NCBI RefSeq assembly: GCF_040536835.1
Contig: NZ_CP159578.1
Location: 1,302,001 to 1,366,000 of the forward strand
Source: Salinicola endophyticus
GTDB taxonomy: Bacteria; Pseudomonadota; Gammaproteobacteria; Pseudomonadales; Halomonadaceae
Reading direction: 5' to 3'
Length of the DNA stretch: 64,000 nucleotides
Under the pieces are notes generated by a model. That model was given only the letters and a program-made list of their open reading frames with translations. It was not told where the DNA came from and searched no databases. This document shows positions 15,065-50,916 of this stretch, piece after piece. How positions within the stretch are numbered: position 1 is the stretch's first letter; every line of letters starts with the position of its first letter. The position numbers and the translations under genes are program-made.

Positions 15065-16080
15065 TGCGGGCAGCCGTTTTCCATGCGCTGCACCGGCCTC
15101 TGGAGGTCCGCGAGCTTACCGACCCCACGCCGGGGGCTGATGAGGTCGTCGTCCAGGTAGAGCGCTGCGGCATCTGTGGCTCCGACCTGCACATGACCGA
15201 AGACGCCGTGTTCGGCCTGTGCCCCGGCGATGTGCTGGGTCATGAGTACGCCGGTGAGATCGTGGGCTGCGGCCAGGAGGTGACGAGTCTGCGTCCGGGG
15301 CAGCGGGTCTCGGTGATGCCGTTTCGTAGCTGCGGGCGCTGTCTCTCCTGTCTCTCCGGGGAGCCGGCCTGGTGTCGGCAGATGGTGCTCGAGGGTGGCG
15401 GTTACGGCGAGTACGCGGCCACCGCCGCGCGCCAGTGCATCCCGCTGCCCGAGGGCGTGAGCACGCGTGACGGGGCGATCGTCGAGCCGCTGGCCGTGGC
15501 GCTCCACGGGGTCCAGCTCTCCGGCCTGCGACCCGGCGACCGCGTGCTGATTCTCGGCGCCGGCCCCATCGGCCTGGCGGTGGCGTTCTGGGCGCGCCGC
15601 TTCGGCGCCAGGCAGGTGGTGGTCCAGGACATCGCCCGCTATCAGGAGGCGCGGGCCGGTGACATGGGCGCTACCGGCTTCGTCTGTGCGCCGGATGAGC
15701 CGGTGGCCGCGGCGACACGCCAGCTCGGTGGCGAGGCGGATATCGTCTTCGAGTGTGCCGGCGTCCCCGGGCTGATTGCCCAGGCCATCGAGCAGGTCAG
15801 GCCCCACGGCACCATTCTGCTCCTCGGCCTGTGCACTCGGCCGGATGCGTTCGTTCCCTTCGCCGCACTATCGAAGGAGATACGCCTGCAGACCGCCGCC
15901 TTCTTCTCCCGACGCGAATACGAAAGTGCCCTGGATGTGCTCGATGCCGGCGCTGTAGAACCGCGCCATTTGATTACCGAAATGGTGCCGCTAGCCAACG
16001 TGCCAGCGGTATTCGAGGCCCTGAAAAGCCGCACTCGTCAATGCAAGGTACTCATCAGCCATGAACAACAACAACTCTGA
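15064..16080 (+). CDS. Zinc-dependent alcohol dehydrogenase (MDR family)
   Basis: This 338-residue medium-chain dehydrogenase carries a catalytic zinc site (CGICGSD at the N-terminus, GHEYAGEI), a structural zinc lobe (CGRCLSCLSGEPAWC) and a Rossmann motif (ILGAGPIGLA). It resembles threonine, sorbitol or butanediol dehydrogenases and should oxidise a secondary alcohol with NAD. It overlaps the SDR upstream by one base, and the MFS gene starts inside its last 20 bases, so the four genes are tightly coupled. The substrate is presumably an intermediate of the same aromatic route. Confidence 0.88.
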   Translation: MRAAVFHALHRPLEVRELTDPTPGADEVVVQVERCGICGSDLHMTEDAVFGLCPGDVLGHEYAGEIVGCGQEVTSLRPGQRVSVMPFRSCGRCLSCLSGEPAWCRQMVLEGGGYGEYAATAARQCIPLPEGVSTRDGAIVEPLAVALHGVQLSGLRPGDRVLILGAGPIGLAVAFWARRFGARQVVVQDIARYQEARAGDMGATGFVCAPDEPVAAATRQLGGEADIVFECAGVPGLIAQAIEQVRPHGTILLLGLCTRPDAFVPFAALSKEIRLQTAAFFSRREYESALDVLDAGAVEPRHLITEMVPLANVPAVFEALKSRTRQCKVLISHEQQQL

Positions 16081-17380
16081 TGTAACAGCCAACGCCACAG
16101 CCAACGTCACAACTGATTCCACAGCCGACGTGACACCCAAGGCGCGCCGCAGCTCACGCTATCAAATTCTGCTGGTGGCACTGCTGAGTTTGAACTTCGG
16201 TATCGTCTTTTTCGACAGGAACGCGCTCAATTTCCTGATGCCTTTCGTTCAGCCCGATCTCGGGCTGTCGAATACGGAAATCGGCCTGACCGCCTCCGCG
16301 CTCTCGATCACCTGGGCCATTTCCGGGCTGATCTTCGGCGCGATGTCGGATCGCAGCGGGCGGCGCAAGATCTTTCTCGTGATCGCCACGCTCATCTTCT
16401 CGCTCTGCTCCTTTCTGACCGGGCTCGCCACCTCCTTTCTGCTGCTGCTCGGTGCGCGGCTGCTCATGGGGATCGCCGAAGGGCCCATCCTGCCGATCTC
16501 GCAGACGGTGACAGCGATAGAAGTCTCGCCCAAGCGTCGCGGTGTGGCCATGGGGGTGATGCAGAACTTCGGCTCCAACCTGCTCGGCTCCTTCGCCGCG
16601 CCGGTGGTGCTGGTCGCCGTCGCCACGGCCTTCGGCTGGCGTGAGGCGTTCTTTCTCGCCGGTGTGCCCGGGCTGCTCGCCGCCGGGCTGATCTGGTGGC
16701 TGATGCGCGAACCCGGCACGGCATCGGTGCCGGCCACCGTGGCCGAACGGCCGGCGCCACGCCGACCGAGTATCCGCGAGATGCTCGCCCATCGGAACAT
16801 GCTCATCTGCTCGCTGATGGCGATCCTGCTGATCGGTTACCTGGTGGTCTGCTGGTCCTTCATGCCGATCTATCTCACCAGCGTGCGCGGTTACTCACCG
16901 CAGGAGATGGGCTGGCTGATGGGGGTGCTGGGGCTCTCGGCGGCCGTGGGGAGCTTCGTGGTCAGCGGGATTTCCGACCGGATCGGGCGCAAGCCGGTGA
17001 TGATCATCACGCCGTTCATGGGGCTGGTCCTGACCCTGGGCGCGATGTACTTCCAGGGCAGTGCGGTGATTCTGGCCATTCTGTTCTTCTTCGGCTGGTC
17101 GCTGAACGGCATCTTCCCGCTGTTCATGGCCATCGTCCCCTCAGAGACGGTCGACCCGCGCTATATCGCCACCGCCCTCGGTTTCGTCTGTGGTGTCGGT
17201 GAAGTGCTGGGGGGCGGCATCCTGCCCACGGTGGCCGGGGCTGCGGCCGATCTCGCCGGGCATGCGGCGCCGCTGTGGCTGATGAGCGTCATCTGTGTCG
17301 TGGCCGGCTTTCTTGCCATGGGGCTCGAGGAGACGGCGCCGGTGGTGGTTGCCAGGCGGTCACAGGCTGCGCTCGCGTAG
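16061..17380 (+). CDS. MFS transporter (anion:cation symporter type)
   Basis: Twelve predicted membrane segments follow an N-terminal low-complexity tail rich in Asn, Thr and Ala. The signature loop between segments 2 and 3 is GAMSDRSGRRK, and FDRNALNF near the first segment is typical of the ACS branch, which carries organic anions such as hexuronates and aromatic acids. The gene begins within the end of the alcohol dehydrogenase gene and is expected to import the substrate of the upstream enzymes. Its TAG stop is also the first bases of an intergenic palindrome. Confidence 0.88.
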   Translation: MNNNNSDVTANATANVTTDSTADVTPKARRSSRYQILLVALLSLNFGIVFFDRNALNFLMPFVQPDLGLSNTEIGLTASALSITWAISGLIFGAMSDRSGRRKIFLVIATLIFSLCSFLTGLATSFLLLLGARLLMGIAEGPILPISQTVTAIEVSPKRRGVAMGVMQNFGSNLLGSFAAPVVLVAVATAFGWREAFFLAGVPGLLAAGLIWWLMREPGTASVPATVAERPAPRRPSIREMLAHRNMLICSLMAILLIGYLVVCWSFMPIYLTSVRGYSPQEMGWLMGVLGLSAAVGSFVVSGISDRIGRKPVMIITPFMGLVLTLGAMYFQGSAVILAILFFFGWSLNGIFPLFMAIVPSETVDPRYIATALGFVCGVGEVLGGGILPTVAGAAADLAGHAAPLWLMSVICVVAGFLAMGLEETAPVVVARRSQAALA

Positions 17381-17533
17381 GCTTTGCACGAAAACTGTCT
17401 GCGCTCGGCAATACGGCGTTAAAAATCGACTCAAAATGCTCATTTACAGCCCGTAAACTCCGCTTTTTCGTCGATTTTTGCCTTAGCTACGCGCTCCGGT
17501 CTGGCCTTCGCTCGCCGAGTTTTCGTAAAAGCC
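17380..17533 (+). repeat. Intergenic palindromic element, family 1, copy A
   Basis: The element begins at the last base of the MFS stop codon. The outer arms are GGCTTT and ACGAAAACT (17388-17396) against AGTTTTCGT (17518-17526) and AAAGCC. The middle arms are AAAAATCGAC and GTCGATTTTT. The core is ATGCTCAT followed by TTTAC-loop-GTAAA and ACTCCGC. The A-tract/T-tract middle stem would act as a bidirectional terminator. Copies B and C lie at 38199-38342 and 44438-44651. Confidence 0.85.
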
Positions 17534-22491: not shown

Positions 22492-22701
22492 GAGGCGGTC
22501 GCAGGGAGCAACCCAAAGCGTGTGGCCGAATCTTTTTCTCGGCCACGCGGGGCAGCCTCGGACGGGGCTTCATGGGAGGAGCACCGCTGAGGTCGCCGTG
22601 TATCTCTGCGGCTTCCTGAACTTATCGGCCGTGGCTCCCAGGAGTTGAGGCGTGGGTAACTTTTTTTTGCTGGCTGCACCGTCAGGGTGGGAGAGGCTGA
22701 C

Positions 22702-22849
22702 GAGCATACAAAATAGCCGGGAGCGGTTTTGAACGTCGCGCAGCGACGGCCCGAAGGGGGCTCGCCAGGGACGGCGAGCATACAAAATAGCCGGGAGTGA
22801 TTTTGAACGTCGCGCAGCGACGGCCCGAAGGGGGCTCGCCAGGGACGGC
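22702..22849. repeat. 74-bp tandem repeat, two full units plus partial third
   Basis: Units at 22702-22775 and 22776-22849 differ at only about two positions (GAGCGG against GAGTGA). A decayed third unit begins at 22850 and runs into the terminator. Each unit contains two perfect hairpins, CGTCGC-GCA-GCGACG and GCTCGCC-loop-GGCGAGC. The GAACGTC..GACGGCCCG-AGGG core recurs inside the palindromic element at 44.5 kb. Confidence 0.9.
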
Positions 22850-38198: not shown

Positions 38199-38342
38199 TA
38201 GGCCTTGTCTGAAAAGTTGTCGAGCGCAGCCCAGACAAGGCAAAAATCGGCGAAAGAGCGGAGTTTACGGGGTGTAAATGAGCATCTTGAGCCGATTTTT
38301 AACGCCGTATGGGCAAGCGCAGTACTTTTCAGTCATGGCCTA
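38199..38342 (-). repeat. Intergenic palindromic element, family 1, copy B
   Basis: Oriented with the upstream efe gene, it begins at that gene's TAG stop (minus strand, 38342-38340). The arms are CTGAAAAGT/ACTTTTCAG (38324-38332 and 38209-38217) and AAAAATCGGC/GCCGATTTTT, with the core ATGCTCAT-TTTAC..GTAAA-ACTCCGC. Between convergent genes it could terminate both. Confidence 0.85.
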
Positions 38343-39179
38343 GTTCAGGCCGAGCAGCCCACGCAAGGTCGACAGATCTTCCGCCAGCACATTGACCGGG
38401 CCGGTCATGGCACGGCGGTCGGCGTCGCTGACCTTGTCGTAGGAGACGAAGCCTTTCTTGGGGTCCTGGGGATCGACGCGGTAGTCGGCCAGGATCGCCT
38501 CGACGTCATCGAAGTTGCCCTGCACGCGCTTGACGAAGTCGGCGTTCTCCTTGGCCGCCAGCGGCTTGAACAGCTCGAAGATCTCCTGGGCGCCATCCAC
38601 GTTGCCCTGGAAATCCCACAGGTCGGTGCGGCTGTAGCGGTCCTCTTCACCGGAGACCTTGGTCGCCGCGACCTCCTCCATCAGTGCTGCGGCACCACCC
38701 ACCACGGTCGAGGGCGGGAAGGTGAGCCCTTGCACGCGCTGGTCGAGATCGTCGACGTCATCCATCAGCCGCTTGGCGTAGGGGGCGAGACCCTGAGTGC
38801 TGTCGTCGTGGAAGAGACCGTACTCGAGGCGGTGGAAGCCGGTGAAGTCGGGATCCTTGACGCCGTGTTCGTAGTCGTCCTCGCGCGCGTCGATGCTGGC
38901 ATCGAGATCGGCGAACAGCTCGGCGATCGGTTCGATGCGCTCGTAGTAGACGCGGGTGGGGGCGTACAGCGCCTGGGCCTTGTCCAGATCGCCCTGATCG
39001 ATCGCCTGGGTGAACTCGCGGGTATGCGCGACCAGCTGTTCCAGGTTGTCGAGCACGTAAAGCTTGTACTCGGCGACCGGACCGACCAGCGCATCGGCGG
39101 TGACGGCGGCCTGGGCAGGGGCGTTGAGCGCCATCAGCGCCAGGGCGCTGACGCTGATCCAGCGGGAGAGCGGTTGCAT
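38340..39179 (-). CDS. efeO: EfeO/EfeM imelysin-domain iron uptake lipoprotein-like protein (M75 only)
   Basis: A periplasmic protein of 279 residues with a signal peptide (MQPLSRWISVSALALMALNA, cleavage AQA-A) and a complete M75/imelysin domain. It has the metal-binding HRLE (116-119) in PDFTGFHRLEYGLF and the acidic stretch YYERIEPIAELF. It lacks the N-terminal cupredoxin domain, so it corresponds to the EfeM form. It is the last gene of the cluster efeU - cupredoxin efeO - efeB - this gene. EfeO-type proteins bind ferric or ferrous iron and deliver it to the EfeU permease. Confidence 0.9.
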   Translation of the reverse strand: MQPLSRWISVSALALMALNAPAQAAVTADALVGPVAEYKLYVLDNLEQLVAHTREFTQAIDQGDLDKAQALYAPTRVYYERIEPIAELFADLDASIDAREDDYEHGVKDPDFTGFHRLEYGLFHDDSTQGLAPYAKRLMDDVDDLDQRVQGLTFPPSTVVGGAAALMEEVAATKVSGEEDRYSRTDLWDFQGNVDGAQEIFELFKPLAAKENADFVKRVQGNFDDVEAILADYRVDPQDPKKGFVSYDKVSDADRRAMTGPVNVLAEDLSTLRGLLGLN

Positions 39180-39290
39180 GGTGAAGCTCCTTTCGATGAT
39201 CCGTGGTGATGATTTTTCAGACGCTGCCGGGGCAGCGTCGGGTCGATGCCATGTTGCTAGCCGTGTGGTCTTGGCCGGGGCCCGTCTTCG

Positions 39291-39350
39291 CGGGCCTTGT
39301 CTTTACGGGCCTTTTCTTTACGGGCCTTTTCTTTACGGGCCTGGTCTGTG
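39291..39350 (-). repeat. Four 15-bp tandem repeats between efeB and the downstream efeO
   Basis: Units of CGGGCCTTTTCTTTA at 39291, 39306, 39321 and 39336; the two middle units are identical and the outer two diverge. They begin 16 bases beyond the efeB stop. In one minus-strand frame they read as Ala-Arg-Lys-Glu-Lys repeats, out of frame with efeB. Confidence 0.85.
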
Positions 39351-43315: not shown

Positions 43316-44440
43316 ATGGCGATTTCCTCTCCCGTTTCCCGCGAACGGGATCTGGGGGTATCCGAACCCCAGACCCTCGGCTTCCTGTTGCTGGACAACT
43401 TCACCCTGATCTCCCTGGCGTCGGCGATCGAACCCCTGCGCATGGCCAATCAGCTGGCCGGCCGCGAGCTCTACCGCTGGTACATCATTACCCTGGACGG
43501 CGCCCCTGTGCGTGCCAGCGACGGCATGCAGGTGACCCCCGACGCCAGCACCCAGGCACCCCTGAATCTCGACTGGCTGGTGGTGTGCGGCGGCGTGGCG
43601 CCGCAGCGCGCGGTATCGCCGGCGCTGCTGAACTGGCTGCAGAGTCGCGGGCGCACGCTGCGGCGCGTCGGCTCGGTGTGTACCGGCAGCTGGGCGCTGG
43701 CCCAGGCCGGCCTGCTGGATGGCTACGAAGCGAGCATTCACTGGGAGTGCCTGGCTGCAATGCAGGAGGCGTACCCGCGCACCGCCTGGAGCACGCGCCT
43801 GTTCTCGATCGACCGCGACCGCTTCACCGCCTCCGGCGGCACTGCGCCGCTGGACATGATGCTCAACCTGATCGGGCGCGATCACGGCCGCGAGCTGTCG
43901 GCGGCGATCTCGGAGATGTTCATCTGCGAGCGCGTGCGCGGCGAAGAGGATCAGCAGCGGGTACCGCTCAAGCATGTACTCGGCACCACCCAGCCCAAGC
44001 TGCTGGAGATCGTGGCGCTGATGGAAGCCAATATCGAGGAGCCGATCGAGCTCGATGAGCTGGCCAGCTATGTCGATGTCTCGCGTCGCCAGCTCGAGCG
44101 CCTGTTCCAGCGCCATCTGCACTGCTCGCCGTCGCGCTACTATCTCAAGCTGCGCCTGACGCGGGCACGCCAGCTGCTCAAGCAGACCCCGCTGCCGATC
44201 ATCGAGATCGCCTCCGCCTGTGGCTTCGTCTCCACGCCGCACTTCTCCAAGTGCTACCGCGAGTACTTCGGTACGCCGCCGCGGGAGGATCGTGGCGAGT
44301 CGGTGAAGATCCGGCGTCTGGAGCCGATTCTGCGCCAGCCCACGCCGGAAGAGGGTGCGTTGATGCAGTTCAGCAGCGCCAGCGTCGCGCTCAACCACGC
44401 GCGCGGTGAGCCCACCTACGCCAGCGTCACGCTGAACTAG
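43316..44440 (+). CDS. gbdR: GbdR-like AraC/GlxA-family regulator of glycine betaine catabolism
   Basis: This 374-residue activator combines an N-terminal DJ-1/PfpI-like class I glutamine amidotransferase fold (about 20-205; nucleophile region VGSVCTGSWALAQAGLL) with a C-terminal AraC helix-turn-helix (VDVSRRQLERLFQRH, IIEIASACGFVSTPHFSKCYREYFGTPP). In Pseudomonas GbdR senses glycine betaine and dimethylglycine and activates gbcAB, dgcAB and the dipeptidase operon. The same genes lie in this window, which supports the name. Its TAG stop is the first base set of a family 1 palindrome. Confidence 0.85.
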   Translation: MAISSPVSRERDLGVSEPQTLGFLLLDNFTLISLASAIEPLRMANQLAGRELYRWYIITLDGAPVRASDGMQVTPDASTQAPLNLDWLVVCGGVAPQRAVSPALLNWLQSRGRTLRRVGSVCTGSWALAQAGLLDGYEASIHWECLAAMQEAYPRTAWSTRLFSIDRDRFTASGGTAPLDMMLNLIGRDHGRELSAAISEMFICERVRGEEDQQRVPLKHVLGTTQPKLLEIVALMEANIEEPIELDELASYVDVSRRQLERLFQRHLHCSPSRYYLKLRLTRARQLLKQTPLPIIEIASACGFVSTPHFSKCYREYFGTPPREDRGESVKIRRLEPILRQPTPEEGALMQFSSASVALNHARGEPTYASVTLN

Positions 44441-44651
44441 GCACTTTCTGAAAAGTACTGCGCTCGCCCATACGGCGTTAAAAATCGGCTCACTGAACAA
44501 CGTTCAGAACGTCCGTAGGACGGCCCGGAGGGCGAGCGGAGCGAGTCACATGCTCATTTACACCCCGTAAACTCCGCGTTTTCGCCGATTTTTGCCTTAG
44601 CTGCGCGCCCCGGCCTTGCCTTCGCTCGTCGACTTTTCAGGCAGCACCTAG
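44438..44651 (+). repeat. Intergenic palindromic element, family 1, copy C, with a nested insert
   Basis: It begins with the gbdR TAG stop. The arms are CTGAAAAGT (44448-44456)/ACTTTTCAG (44632-44640) and AAAAATCGGC (44480-44489)/GCCGATTTTT (44584-44593). A 56-base insert (about 44494-44549), flanked by TCAC, separates the left arm from the core. Both outer ends read CTAG. Confidence 0.85.
44494..44549 (+). repeat. Insert inside copy C, related to the 22.7-kb tandem repeat
   Basis: The insert carries hairpins TGAAC-AAC-GTTCA and CGTCC-GTA-GGACG followed by GCCCGGAGGG. The 22.7-kb unit has GAACGTC-stem-GACGGCCCGAAGGG in the same order. It is flanked by TCAC direct repeats. Confidence 0.6.
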
Positions 44652-46350: not shown

Positions 46351-46774
46351 GGCAGCAGGCTCCTGAGCGGCGTTATGGCGTTACGAAGTTTCGGTGCTGT
46401 GGCGCCAGGAGGCGGTGGCGCCGAGAACAGTCGCGGCATGTCGCGATTGGAATCGCGTTACGGGCGGTTGTTCTATTAAGAGAACGTTCTACAAAAGGAA
46501 CAACTGCGCGTCAAGCGCGCTGGCGCCGCGGCTGGCGAGCAGCGGGCCGGCAAGTGCGACGCCGAGTCGCGAAATCGGGGCATCGGTGGCCCCCGGGAAG
46601 CGTGCGCCGGGGCGTCGTGGAGAGAACGTCCGCCGTGACGCAATCGGAACACTCGGATTCGCTTTCGGTCGGCGAGCGGGCAGGGCGCAGGGATATGCTG
46701 CGCGGAACAGTCGCTCTCGCCGCTTCATCATCGTGATGCCAAACCGGGAGCGCGCAACCGAGGAGGATTTCCGC
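46351..46774. other. Divergent promoter region of the XRE-azlCD operon and the dipeptidase operon
   Basis: No gene seen. It contains the two XRE-type palindromes (46470-46501), a 7-bp inverted repeat CGCGATT-GG-AATCGCG (46442-46457) and, on the right, the ribosome site GAGGAGG of the dipeptidase gene. GbdR sites are expected here but none was identified with confidence. Confidence 0.4.
46470..46501. promoter_or_regulatory. Two abutting 16-bp palindromes, probable XRE-cupin operator
   Basis: GTTCTATTAAGAGAAC (46470-46485, perfect GTTCT/AGAAC arms) is followed at once by GTTCTACAAAAGGAAC (46486-46501, GTTC/GAAC). Spacing, length and position 120 bases upstream of the XRE gene fit an operator for two repressor dimers. 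Confidence 0.7.
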
Positions 46775-47752
46775 ATGTCGACGTCATCCGTGCACGACGA
46801 TGCCATCATCATCGACGGCCTGATCATTGCCAAATGGGACCGCGCCCTGTTCGAGGACATGCGCAAGGGCGGCCTGACCGCGGCCAACTGCACGGTGTCG
46901 GTGTGGGAGGATTTCGAAGCCACCGTCGACAACATCGTCGCCGTCAACCAGCTGATGCGCGACAACGCCGAGCTGGTGCGCCCGGTGCACACCACCCGCG
47001 ACATCACCCGGGCCAAGGAAGAGGGCAAGACCGGCATCATCCTCGGGTTCCAGAACGCCTACGCCTTCGAAGACAAGCTGGGCTACATCGAGATCTTCAA
47101 GAAGCTCGGCGTGGGCATCACCCAGCTCTGCTACAACACCCAGAACCTGGTCGGTACCGGCTGCTACGAGCGCGACGGCGGGCTCTCCGGCTACGGCCGT
47201 GAAGTGATCGCCGAGATGAACCGGGTCGGCATGATGTGCGATCTTTCCCACGTCGGCTCGAAGACCTCCGAGGAGATCATTCTCGAATCGAGCAAGCCGG
47301 TCTGCTACTCCCACTGCCTGCCCAGCGGGCTCAAGGAGCACCCGCGCAACAAGTCCGACGCGGAGCTCAAGTTCATCGCCGACCACGGTGGCTTCGTCGG
47401 CGTGACCATGTTCACGCCCTTCCTCAAGGCGGGTGTCAACGCCACCGTCGAGGATTACGTCGAGGCGATCGTCTACATCATGAACATCGTCGGTGAGGAT
47501 GCCATCGGTATCGGTACCGACTTCACCCAGGGCCAGGACGAAGCCTTCTTCGAGTGGCTGACCCACGACAAGGGCTACGCCCGCCGCCTGACCCGCTTCG
47601 GCGAGATCATCAATCCCAAGGGCATCCGCACCATCGGTGAGTTCCCCAACCTGACCCAGGCGCTGCTGGACCACGGCCTGTCCGAGCCGGTGGTGCGCAA
47701 GATCATGGGGGAGAACTGGGTGCGGACGTTGAAAGATGTCTGGGGCGAGTAA
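46775..47752 (+). CDS. Membrane dipeptidase family (M19) protein of the glycine betaine regulon
   Basis: ATG 46775 follows GAGGAGG. The 325-residue zinc peptidase-like protein has NAYAFEDKLGYIEIF, LTYNTQ-like LCYNTQNLVGTGCYE, CDLSHVGSKTSEEI, SHCLPSGLKEHPRNKSD and IGIGTDFTQGQDE, the usual landmarks of the M19 renal dipeptidase family. In Pseudomonas the ortholog sits at the head of the GbdR-activated dgc operon (as here) and its exact substrate is unknown. A family 2 palindromic element follows its stop. Confidence 0.88.
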   Translation: MSTSSVHDDAIIIDGLIIAKWDRALFEDMRKGGLTAANCTVSVWEDFEATVDNIVAVNQLMRDNAELVRPVHTTRDITRAKEEGKTGIILGFQNAYAFEDKLGYIEIFKKLGVGITQLCYNTQNLVGTGCYERDGGLSGYGREVIAEMNRVGMMCDLSHVGSKTSEEIILESSKPVCYSHCLPSGLKEHPRNKSDAELKFIADHGGFVGVTMFTPFLKAGVNATVEDYVEAIVYIMNIVGEDAIGIGTDFTQGQDEAFFEWLTHDKGYARRLTRFGEIINPKGIRTIGEFPNLTQALLDHGLSEPVVRKIMGENWVRTLKDVWGE

Positions 47753-47764
47753 ACCACCGAGCCT

Positions 47765-47873
47765 ATTGCGCTCGCGGGCGCGTTGTTGCGCATCGGGTCG
47801 CCATGCTCATGAACAAACACGTTCACTCCGCTGGCTCCCCAATCCGCGCCTAGCGCCCGCTTCGCTCATGACG
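47765..47873 (+). repeat. Intergenic palindromic element, family 2, copy a
   Basis: It begins ATTGCGCTCGC, 12 bases after the dipeptidase stop. The outer arms are GCGGGCGC (47774-47781)/GCGCCCGC (47853-47860) and the inner arms GAAC (47811-47814)/GTTC (47821-47824) around AAACAC. The core is ATGCTCAT and ACTCCGCTGGCTC. Confidence 0.85.
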
Positions 47874-47976
47874 GCTCCGCAAGACTAGCGGAGTCGGCTG
47901 GAGCCCCCAAGCCATCATTCTGCTCTTAGCCCGCGGCTGGAAGCGCCGCCCAAGAACAACTTCAGAGGTGACCGAT

Positions 47977-48625: not shown

Positions 48626-50695
48626 ATGGCCCATGAAGCGCTATTCAAGCCGATTCAAATCGGCAAGCTGACGATCCGCAACCGTGTGGTCAGTACCGCC
48701 CACGCCGAGGTGCATGCCACCGACGGCGGCATGACCACCGATCGCTACGTCAAGTATTACGAAGAGAAGTCGAAAGGTGGCTGTGGGCTCTGTATCTGCG
48801 GCGGTTCCTCGCCGGTCTCCATCGACAGCCCGCAGCAGTGGTGGAGCTCGGTCAACGTCTCCACCGATCGCATCATTCCGTATTTCCAGAATCTCGCCGA
48901 TGCCGTGCACAAGCATGGCGGCAAGATCATGATCCAGATCACCCACATGGGGCGGCGTTCGCGCTGGGACGGCCACAACTGGTCGACCCTGGTCTCGCCC
49001 TCCGGGATCCGGGAGCCGGTTCACCGCGCCACCTGCAAGACCATCGAAGAAGAAGAGATCTGGCGCATCATCAGTGATTTCGCCCAGGGTGCACGGCGGG
49101 TCAAGGAGGGCGGGCTCGACGGCTGCGAACTCTCCGCGGTCCACCAGCACCTGATCGACCAGTTCTGGAGCCCGCGCGTCAACAAGCGTACCGACCAGTG
49201 GGGCGGCAGCTTCGAGAACCGCATGCGCTTCGGCATGGAAGTGCTCAAGGCGGTGCGTGCAGAAGTCGGCGACGACTTCTGCGTCGGCATGCGCATCTGC
49301 GGCGACGAGTTCCATCCCGATGGCCTGTCGCACGACGACATGAAGCAGATCGCCGCCTACTACGATGCCACCGGCATGGTCGACTTCTTCGGCGTGATCG
49401 GCTCCGGCTGTGATACCCACGACACCCTGGCCAACGTCATCCCCAATATGTCCTACCCGCCGGAGCCGTTTCTGCACTTGGCGGCGGGCATCAAGGAGGT
49501 GGTCTCGGTCCCGGTCATCCACGCCCAGAACATCAAGGATCCGACCCAGGCCGAGCGTATCCTCGAAGGCGGCTACGTCGACCTGGTGGGGATGACCCGG
49601 GCGCACATCGCCGACCCGCACATCATCGCCAAGATCAAGGATGGCCAGACCGACCAGATTCGTCAGTGTGTGGGTGCCAACTACTGCATCGACCGCCAGT
49701 ACCAGGGCCTCGACGTGCTCTGCATCCAGAACGCGGCGACCTCGCGCGAGTACATGGGCCTGCCGCACATCATCGAGAAGACCAGCGGACCCAAGCGCAA
49801 GGTGGTGGTGGTCGGCGGCGGCCCCGCCGGCATGGAGGCGGCCCGCGTCAGCGCCGAGCGTGGTCACGACGTGACCCTGATCGAAGCCCAGTCCCAGCTC
49901 GGCGGCCAGATCACCCTGGCTGCGCGGGCACCGCAGCGCGATCAGATCGCCGGTATCACCCGCTGGTACGAGATGGAGCTTTCGCGCCTCGGCGTCGATG
50001 TCCAGCTCGACACCCGCGCCGACGACTCGATGGTGCGCGACCTGCAGCCCGACGTGGTGGTGCTGGCCAACGGCGGCCATCCGTTCCTCGAACAGGTGCC
50101 GGAGTGGGGCTACTCGGAAAATCCTGAGGAGAGCCTGGCTGTCAGCAGCTGGGACATCCTCAGCGGCAAGGTCGAGCCGGGCAAGAACGTGCTGGTCTAC
50201 GACACCATGTGCGAGTTCAGCGGCATGTCCACCGCCGACTATCTCGCCAGCAAGGGCGCCACGGTGGAGATCGTCACCGACGACACCAAGCCCGGTGTGG
50301 CGATTGGTGGCACCACCTTCCCGACCTACTACCGCAGCCTCTATCAGCAGTCGGTGGTGATGACCGGCGACCTGGGGCTGCACAAGGTCTACCGCGAAGG
50401 TGACAAGCTGGTTGCGCTGTTCGAGAACGAGTACACCGGCGAGCACGAGGAGCGGGTGGTCGATCAGGTGGTGATCGAGAACGGCGTGCGTCCGGACGAG
50501 TCGCTCTACTACGCACTCAAGTCGCGTTCGCGCAACCACGGCCAGATCGATATCGAGGCGCTGTATGCGATCGCGCCCCAGCCGACCCTGGCCGAGAGCG
50601 GCGAGTTCGCGCTGTTCCGGATCGGTGACTGTGTGGCGCAGCGCAATACGCATGCGGCGATCTACGACGCCCTGCGGCTGTGCATGCACTTTTAG
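48626..50695 (+). CDS. dgcA: Dimethylglycine demethylase subunit DgcA
   Basis: DgcA is the FMN/FAD enzyme that oxidatively demethylates N,N-dimethylglycine to sarcosine. The 689-residue protein has an OYE-type TIM barrel (about 5-380; LSAVHQHLIDQFWSPRVNKR, DQWGGSFENR). A cysteine cluster follows at CVGANYC and DVLCIQNAATSRE; the usual C-x2-C of the Fe-S motif is reduced, as in related betaine demethylases. A C-terminal FAD domain has VVVVGGGPAGMEAA and the NAD-binding region. ETF genes and dgcB follow. A family 2 palindrome lies 10 bases after the stop. Confidence 0.95.
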   Translation: MAHEALFKPIQIGKLTIRNRVVSTAHAEVHATDGGMTTDRYVKYYEEKSKGGCGLCICGGSSPVSIDSPQQWWSSVNVSTDRIIPYFQNLADAVHKHGGKIMIQITHMGRRSRWDGHNWSTLVSPSGIREPVHRATCKTIEEEEIWRIISDFAQGARRVKEGGLDGCELSAVHQHLIDQFWSPRVNKRTDQWGGSFENRMRFGMEVLKAVRAEVGDDFCVGMRICGDEFHPDGLSHDDMKQIAAYYDATGMVDFFGVIGSGCDTHDTLANVIPNMSYPPEPFLHLAAGIKEVVSVPVIHAQNIKDPTQAERILEGGYVDLVGMTRAHIADPHIIAKIKDGQTDQIRQCVGANYCIDRQYQGLDVLCIQNAATSREYMGLPHIIEKTSGPKRKVVVVGGGPAGMEAARVSAERGHDVTLIEAQSQLGGQITLAARAPQRDQIAGITRWYEMELSRLGVDVQLDTRADDSMVRDLQPDVVVLANGGHPFLEQVPEWGYSENPEESLAVSSWDILSGKVEPGKNVLVYDTMCEFSGMSTADYLASKGATVEIVTDDTKPGVAIGGTTFPTYYRSLYQQSVVMTGDLGLHKVYREGDKLVALFENEYTGEHEERVVDQVVIENGVRPDESLYYALKSRSRNHGQIDIEALYAIAPQPTLAESGEFALFRIGDCVAQRNTHAAIYDALRLCMHF

Positions 50696-50704
50696 TGCAA
50701 AGCG

Positions 50705-50813
50705 ATTGCGCTCGCTCAGGCATTGTTGAAGTCCGGCTCGCCATGCTCATGGACAAACACGTCCACTCCGCTGGCTCGCCGTCCTTCGCCGCGCCTGAGC
50801 GTCGCTCATGACG
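50705..50813 (+). repeat. Intergenic palindromic element, family 2, copy b
   Basis: It begins ATTGCGCTCGC, 10 bases after the dgcA stop. The outer arms are GCTCAGGC (50714-50721)/GCCTGAGC (50793-50800) and the inner arms GGAC (50751-50754)/GTCC (50761-50764) around AAACAC. Compared with copy a, both arm pairs change together. Confidence 0.85.
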
Positions 50814-50916
50814 CTTTCTCTAGCCTGGTGACAGGGCGGTACGCGCTTTTTCGACCGCCTCTCGCCAACCCGATCCGATACGCTTTCATGGTCGGTGCGA
50901 TTTCCGGAGAAGTCCG

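Follow-up and report, generated by a model that had tools for sequence, protein, structure and literature searches.

The palindromic intergenic elements of Salinicola endophyticus are, on balance, probably an ERIC-like MITE (a non-autonomous transposable element), moved in trans and kept at stop codons in the direction that would harm the adjoining gene less. At least 87 copies are known in the genome (4.32 Mb, one contig), 74 found by a core pattern with up to three mismatches, which gave no match when reversed as a control, and 13 more by a covariance model. The genome-wide model search, proposed in the sequence-only reading that drew attention to these elements, gave at least 84 matches (150 of 680 candidates scored), 71 among the 74 and 13 new; BLAST with copy A gave at least 41 (40 of 107 candidates scored), the best other match having an E-value of 8e-52. 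Chance would not come near producing such numbers. Copies are 109–225 bp long, most uninterrupted ones 137–142 bp, and carry no transposase gene. At gathering and at permissive thresholds Rfam had no match to the element, reporting only tRNAs.

We call sense the strand that folds and bears GGAG, i.e. the one reading CGGAGTTTAC-N5-GTAAATGAGCA. From the outside, the order is a terminal inverted repeat, a helix, a GGC/AACGC box and a middle helix, which is AAAAATCGGC/GCCGATTTTT in many copies; inward of this follow a GA/GA mismatch, a four-pair helix with a bulged A and two G-C pairs, and innermost a GGAG/UGAG loop, a five-pair helix and a five-base loop. Three classes of ends occur in the genome, the body being alike in all three. 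Class a ends (GTGCTGTCTGAAAAGT) and class b ends (GGTTTGTACGAAAAGT) both adjoin TA within (C/T)TA(G/A), and class c ends (GAGGGTGTTTACAAA) adjoin a duplicated TNA, e.g. TCA/TCA, TAA/TAA or ATA/ATA. Identical 3-bp TNA flanks were present in 19 of 23 class c copies (one of 24 dropped), and 34 of 47 class a and b copies (three of 50 dropped) had TA at corresponding offsets on both sides.

Five copies lie in the window, the 64,000-nucleotide stretch of DNA that was analysed. Three of these, A, B and C, had been noted from the sequence alone, and their positions and relative strands were confirmed. Copy A (17381–17533, folding strand −, 91.1 bits against the model, core at 17437–17462 on the − strand) has class b terminal repeats and touches with its right end the TAG stop (17378–17380) of an MFS gene (16061–17380). 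Copy B (38202–38339, folding strand +, 117.5 bits) is class a and lies between TTAG and CTAG; its core (38259–38284, + strand) reads CGGAG-TTTAC-N5-GTAAA-TGAGCA, and its right end touches the TAG stop (complement of 38340–38342) of an imelysin-like gene (38340–39179). Copy C (44441–44647, folding strand −, 38.4 bits, core at 44551–44576 on the − strand), class a with an inserted module, is situated between CTAG at 44437–44440 and CTAG at 44648–44651, the right end touching the TAG stop (44438–44440) of a gene (43316–44440) with DJ-1/PfpI and AraC-type HTH matches in Pfam. The other two, both on the − strand and given here as the extent of the model match, belong to a diverged second subfamily: W1 (47759–47875, core helix UGAAC/GUUCA) follows the TAA of a peptidase M19 gene (46394–47752) at a distance of 6 nt, and W2 (50699–50815, core helix UGGAC/GUCCA) follows the TAG of an FMN-oxidoreductase gene (48626–50695) at 3 nt.

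The arms quoted earlier are present as described, the outer ones being ACGAAAACT/AGTTTTCGT in A versus CTGAAAAGT/ACTTTTCAG in B and C, and the middle ones ATCGAC/GTCGAT in A versus ATCGGC/GCCGAT in B and C. The outer-arm difference had been taken for point compensation; it is rather that A and B/C carry different terminal-repeat classes. Nor is length shared as had been thought, A, B and C measuring 153, 138 and 207 bp between the target copies, because some 60–70 additional bases adjoin the core in C, and A has a short additional piece.

Extra hairpin modules beside the core occur in copy C, in other genome copies and in Pseudomonas copies. The small-hairpin module of copy C spans 44490–44549 (− strand, limits approximate), and genome copies 48659, 1133563, 3063758 and 4256649 have similar modules on that side of the core. 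A recurring GACCGGGCTGGCGCTCCAG hairpin stands on one or both sides of the core in genome copies 2017569, 2061711, 3328124, 3681927 and others, and inserts similar to it adjoin the core in Pseudomonas copies. Copy 2061711 is a natural hybrid, its ends being of two terminal-repeat types, and may illustrate the way in which ends are swapped. Elsewhere in the window, at 22701–22848, a 74-bp unit stands twice in tandem, the two being 97% alike and made up of small hairpins (GTCGCGCAGCGAC, GGCCCGAAGGGG) that resemble the modules inserted in copy C, and at 39276–39335 15-base units (CGGGCCTTTTCTTTA and variants) stand head to tail.

The earlier claim of a conserved structure with compensatory changes is strongly supported by covariation. 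In an alignment of 46 diverse sequences, comprising one window copy, Gammaproteobacteria, Nitrosomonas-type genomes and Bacteroidota metagenome-assembled genomes (MAGs), 90.6% of cells pair and double-sided changes number 293 versus 88.1 ± 10.8 when shuffled; sliding the partner by one to three columns lowers pairing to 34–42%. These rows derive from 89 candidates prefiltered for AACG and AGGC-like boxes, of which 53 were kept as distinct and 46 aligned, hence the conservation of those boxes in the alignment is partly a product of selection. Likewise, 90.2% of cells pair among the 87 copies of the own genome, with 286 double-sided changes versus 78.8 ± 7.1 shuffled (model-fitted alignment, core helix included). 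Covariation thus lies far above the shuffled control, and the copies sit behind different genes across the genome; a lack of covariation or a single recent duplication had been named as findings that would speak against the original reading.

In copies found by pattern, the search itself dictates the core; variants of the core helix were taken from the covariance model instead. Compensatory types occur at four of the five core-helix pairs among the 87 own copies; in the window, GTGAAC/GTTCAT (47759–47875) and GTGGAC/GTCCAT (50699–50815) replace GTTTAC/GTAAAT. Such variants imply that the sequence of the core helix is free and that the GGAG/UGAG loop is what stays. Of the 64 own copies with at most two core mismatches, 51 and 52 retain the two GA/GA mismatch positions, as do 89 and 87 of 117 cross-taxon copies. 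These data bear on a rival account of the covariation, in which inverted repeats are kept identical for transposase binding or by recombination. The outer arms would suit it, as they are terminal repeats and differ by class; the inner and middle helices, however, are set far in from the ends, with as many as four Watson-Crick types at a position, and alternate with the conserved GA/GA mismatches, which perfect palindromy would remove. The retained mismatches largely refute this account, and we consider it very improbable.

The fold favours one strand. Predicted RNA folding of the sense strand was 10.3 kcal/mol stabler than that of its complement, in 47 of 48 copies (24 of 72 dropped for length). 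G-U versus A-C counts lean the same way, 35:21, or 93:42 on the model-fitted alignment, although position by position no strand lean is clear. As the lean to the sense strand is only mild, action of the conserved fold at the RNA level is suggested rather than proven.

Evidence for movement comes from a relative (G015, locus L239) that holds a clean empty site for copy C, next to a protein 99% identical to that in the window. The relative reads ..AACTAG|CGCCGAGG.. where the window reads AACTAG, element, CTAG and CGCCGAGG; the element therefore moves. In the same relative (L208), an end-like remnant lies behind the imelysin-like gene and is followed by a short tandem repeat CATGCCTGAGCCAGGA, as if decayed by slippage.

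Ends matching those of the element also bracket transposase genes in relatives of the genus. Class c ends, with one and two mismatches in 15, stand about 1.17 kb apart around a decayed PF01609 (DDE_Tnp_1) gene in genome G013 (L323), and copy 1062587 has GCTYTGTCTGAAAAA ends, which also flank a PF13340 transposase gene in genomes G001 and G012 (L199, L200). The G001 transposase, the copy tested, has two overlapping frames, each named IS5 family (NF033580). The own genome gave no match to PF13340 or PF01609, the two families searched for, and no transposase-bearing partner was found for class b ends; by eye, the 65 class c end sites of the own genome, some of them in unanalysed copies, contain no pair about 1 kb apart. 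One plasmid copy in P. amygdali adjoins an IS630 transposase gene; common ends were not shown, and IS630 was not retained as a partner. The MITE-like nature suspected at the outset is thus borne out by terminal inverted repeats, target duplication, an empty site and ends held in common with transposase-bearing elements in relatives.

The position of the copies relative to genes is strongly directional. Gene calls came from a codon model that had been trained on the window, and contact was defined as an element end within 2 nt of the stop codon of a gene reading into it. Among 72 copies (two of 74 dropped for poor ends), the right end touches such a stop in 28 and the left in 3 (binomial 4.6e-6). 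Right and left contacts number 7:0, 8:2 and 13:1 in classes a, b and c, 14 and 2 in convergent gaps (n = 24), and 14 of 20 versus 1 of 15 in tandem gaps. In the 13 further copies found by the model, inspected by eye, 10 right ends and one left end lie within a few nucleotides of a stop. Loci in other genomes (32 of 40 used, six lacking ends and two lacking genes; five of six genomes contribute) show 10 right and 2 left contacts within 8 nt using automatic ends, although a genome of the same family, G026, has no right contact in six and one left. The named cross-taxon copies, which include the Alistipes MAGs L081 and L153, add 16 right versus 4 left contacts at a threshold of at least 150 codons, and serve as support only, since edges were set automatically in 87 of 97 and many are wrong (lengths >200). 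As regards replication, sense strands lean mildly to one replichore direction (45 of 74, p = 0.08; 17 of 28 right-contact copies); this lean falls far short of the 28:3 rule, which replication thus does little to explain.

Contacts were also simulated by placing each copy at a random target motif in the same gap and in random direction, which gave 9.8 ± 2.4 right contacts with a maximum of 21 in 20,000 runs. Ignoring direction, the simulation gave 19.5 contacts, whereas the same 64 copies have 26 right and one left, i.e. 27; the eight of 72 dropped (seven without a candidate target, one for its gap) include two right and two left contacts. Hence position is mostly a matter of target supply with a modest excess, and direction is the part that remains to be explained. 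With its right end at the stop, an element contributes its complementary, weaker-folding strand to the mRNA of that gene.

The mechanism we propose starts from DDE-type transposases, by inference of the IS5 superfamily, which would be supplied in trans and recognise the terminal repeats, so that lineages of the same body would bear the repeats of different insertion sequences. Insertion would occur at TA or TNA targets, of which stop codons may form a large share of the safe ones in a genome as GC-rich as this, and duplication of the target would leave the stop codon in place. The body would be kept by its conserved one-strand fold and not by the terminal repeats, helix sequence being free while the G.A mismatches and core stay fixed. 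Copies at stop codons would then survive almost only where the mRNA of the gene carries the complementary strand: a strong fold directly behind the stop would cause the insertion to be lost, and the reverse orientation would be kept. Selection, rather than insertion, would thereby set the direction. Selection alone does not account for the rule in convergent gaps, where transcription may reach the element from both sides.

Those convergent gaps, where genes point in from both sides and right contacts still outnumber left by 14 to 2, fit a different explanation, namely that direction is set at insertion, the folded strand being recognised, in the form of single-stranded DNA or of RNA, while the target gene is transcribed, and the right end laid towards the upstream gene. 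Obedience of all three end classes also fits, implying that the rule follows the body and not the ends, and in the few class c copies that lie elsewhere than at a stop codon no TCA/TGA bias is obvious by eye. Ordinary DDE transposition, however, which inverted repeats and short duplications of fixed length indicate, is not known to us to read gene direction, and no enzyme for such recognition was seen. We regard direction set at insertion as possible, at about a one-in-four level of belief, and selection on copies inserted by DDE transposition as the preferred reading.

The first suggestion made for the element was a dispersed terminator acting in both directions. A bidirectional intrinsic terminator spread by transposition would accord with the A-tract/T-tract stem of class a and b copies and with the frequency of convergent gaps (25 of 74, versus 8 of 66 other gaps in the same loci). 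The T-run is not conserved, however: class c copies have it shortened or broken up, and Bacteroidota-labelled members lack it while keeping the remaining fold. Nor does a bidirectional terminator predict that one fixed end meets the stop codon. A terminator scan of copy B was empty, in a scan that allows loops of 3–8 bases and is blind to the middle stem. As a general function, termination is therefore unsupported and we hold it to be improbable; a terminator role is possible for classes a and b.

Slightly more credible, yet still unlikely, is that the fold is a functional RNA element, affecting mRNA stability or binding a protein, and is kept for its benefit to the host gene. The internal loops are conserved over large distances (in the 46 rows prefiltered for boxes), and in Yersinia ERIC alters the stability of upstream mRNA in a direction-dependent and ribosome-linked manner, a result of De Gregorio 2005 as related in part of the text of Delihas 2007 (PMC2229807). 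Against such a benefit, the core is absent behind the orthologous gene of copy C in all 19 relatives and behind that of copy B in 12 relatives, where the gene ends at the same codon in 11 and one codon earlier in one (the gene end was not located in one further relative). Furthermore, the five window copies sit behind unrelated genes, and the gene carries the complementary strand.

The closest known system is ERIC/IRU/RU-1 of Enterobacteriaceae and Vibrionaceae, likewise an intergenic imperfect palindrome with TA ends. Its centre, GGAG-CTTAC-N4-GTAAG-TGA, is in the same register as GGAG-TTTAC-N5-GTAAA-TGAG here, so that the GGAG-YTTAC..GTAAR-TGA centre by which ERIC is recognised is present in our element, and an AACGCAG box to the right of the centre is a further likeness. 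One own copy (L299) has a core intermediate to ERIC, GAG-CTTAT..ATAAG-TGAG. Among the E. coli loci inspected (eight regions at ybhJ-ybhI and one at cusC-cusF), the right end of ERIC lies 1 and 6 nt from the stop codon of the antisense gene at ybhI and cusC, respectively. ERIC, however, is 127 bp long with TATACTC.. ends, as against mostly 137–142 bp and other ends here, and our covariance model scored 13.0 bits on ERIC (E = 0.0026 on its 1238 bases alone, 0.14 together with the window). Kinship with ERIC is likely; given the differences in length and ends and the weak model score, the element is not filed as ERIC. By eye, class b copies seem to have a frame on the antisense strand that stays open over most of their length, which recalls the reverse complement of the ERIC consensus, whose open frame, along with the addition of ERIC to the 3' ends of genes, is described in part of another article by Delihas (PMC2759123).

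REP elements and REPINs are also intergenic palindromes, often near genes, and to our knowledge are without terminal repeats with 2–3 bp duplications; ISAba12, which shares its ends with a MITE in the same genome, belongs to the IS5 family. Partial accounts give REPs as 20–40 bp with GTAG or CGTC at one end, from which our element differs in length and ends. GTAG REPs often supply TAG stop codons, according to part of PMC3733652. MITEAba12 (about 113 bp) has ends in common with resident ISAba12 and differs from our element in its 9-bp duplications and weak predicted folding, no such core being reported in the parts of that article consulted (PMC6382973). The R0 to R200 repeats of P. fluorescens, compared by their description in part of Silby et al. 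2009 (PMC2718517), show a tail-repeat-tail bias as seen here, and two of these families have ends in common with resident insertion sequences. In the literature covered, mostly open-access text with supplements outside, we found no description of this family, of a core shared across phyla or of the direction at stop codons.

Copy A was matched in 41 of 58 genomes searched, the own genome counted, and the covariance model at E 1e-5 or better in 85 of 299 genomes drawn from the phylum, under stricter filters and scoring 12 candidates in each genome. When species genomes were scanned for the exact pattern, at least 119 stretches matched; among the matches listed (80 of the 119) were Pseudomonas, Stutzerimonas, Halomonas, Salinicola, Chromohalobacter, Marinospirillum, Methylophaga, Nitrosomonas-type genomes and others, together with several Alistipes, Rikenellaceae, Tidjanibacter and Lentimicrobiaceae MAGs. 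The Bacteroidota cases among the matches listed are MAGs throughout, including several independent Alistipes and Tidjanibacter bins with versions of their own; a Pedobacter-labelled copy (L109) resembles a Pseudomonas-type copy and may be misbinned. The fold, purine-rich core included (GGAG, helix, UGAG, with GA/GA mismatches), is met again in Pseudomonas, Nitrosomonas-type genomes and Bacteroidota MAGs, whereas the terminal repeats of distant members, for example AACAGGCCGTTGAAAAAC among the Pseudomonas types and GAGGTTGAATAAAAAG among the Bacteroidota types, are unrelated to the local ones. Seven plasmid records match the element, six from Pseudomonas and one from Halomonas, and phage records contain no match.

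Bacterial MITEs are usually described in one host group and recognised by their ends. Our results raise the broader idea, which we offer tentatively and with belief somewhat short of even, that ERIC and these elements form one ancient folded mobile superfamily spanning at least Pseudomonadota and Bacteroidota, in which a one-strand fold with purine loops would be inherited, terminal repeats would be exchanged between transposases, and copies would be laid at stop codons in a fixed direction through a fold read by a host factor or the integration machinery. Interchangeable ends around an inside conserved over very large distances would reverse the usual view of what propagates in such elements. 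Directional contact with stop codons would provide a handle on whether insertion or an effect on mRNA shapes ERIC-type repeats, and close relatives that differ in whether a copy follows a given gene would serve as natural experiments.
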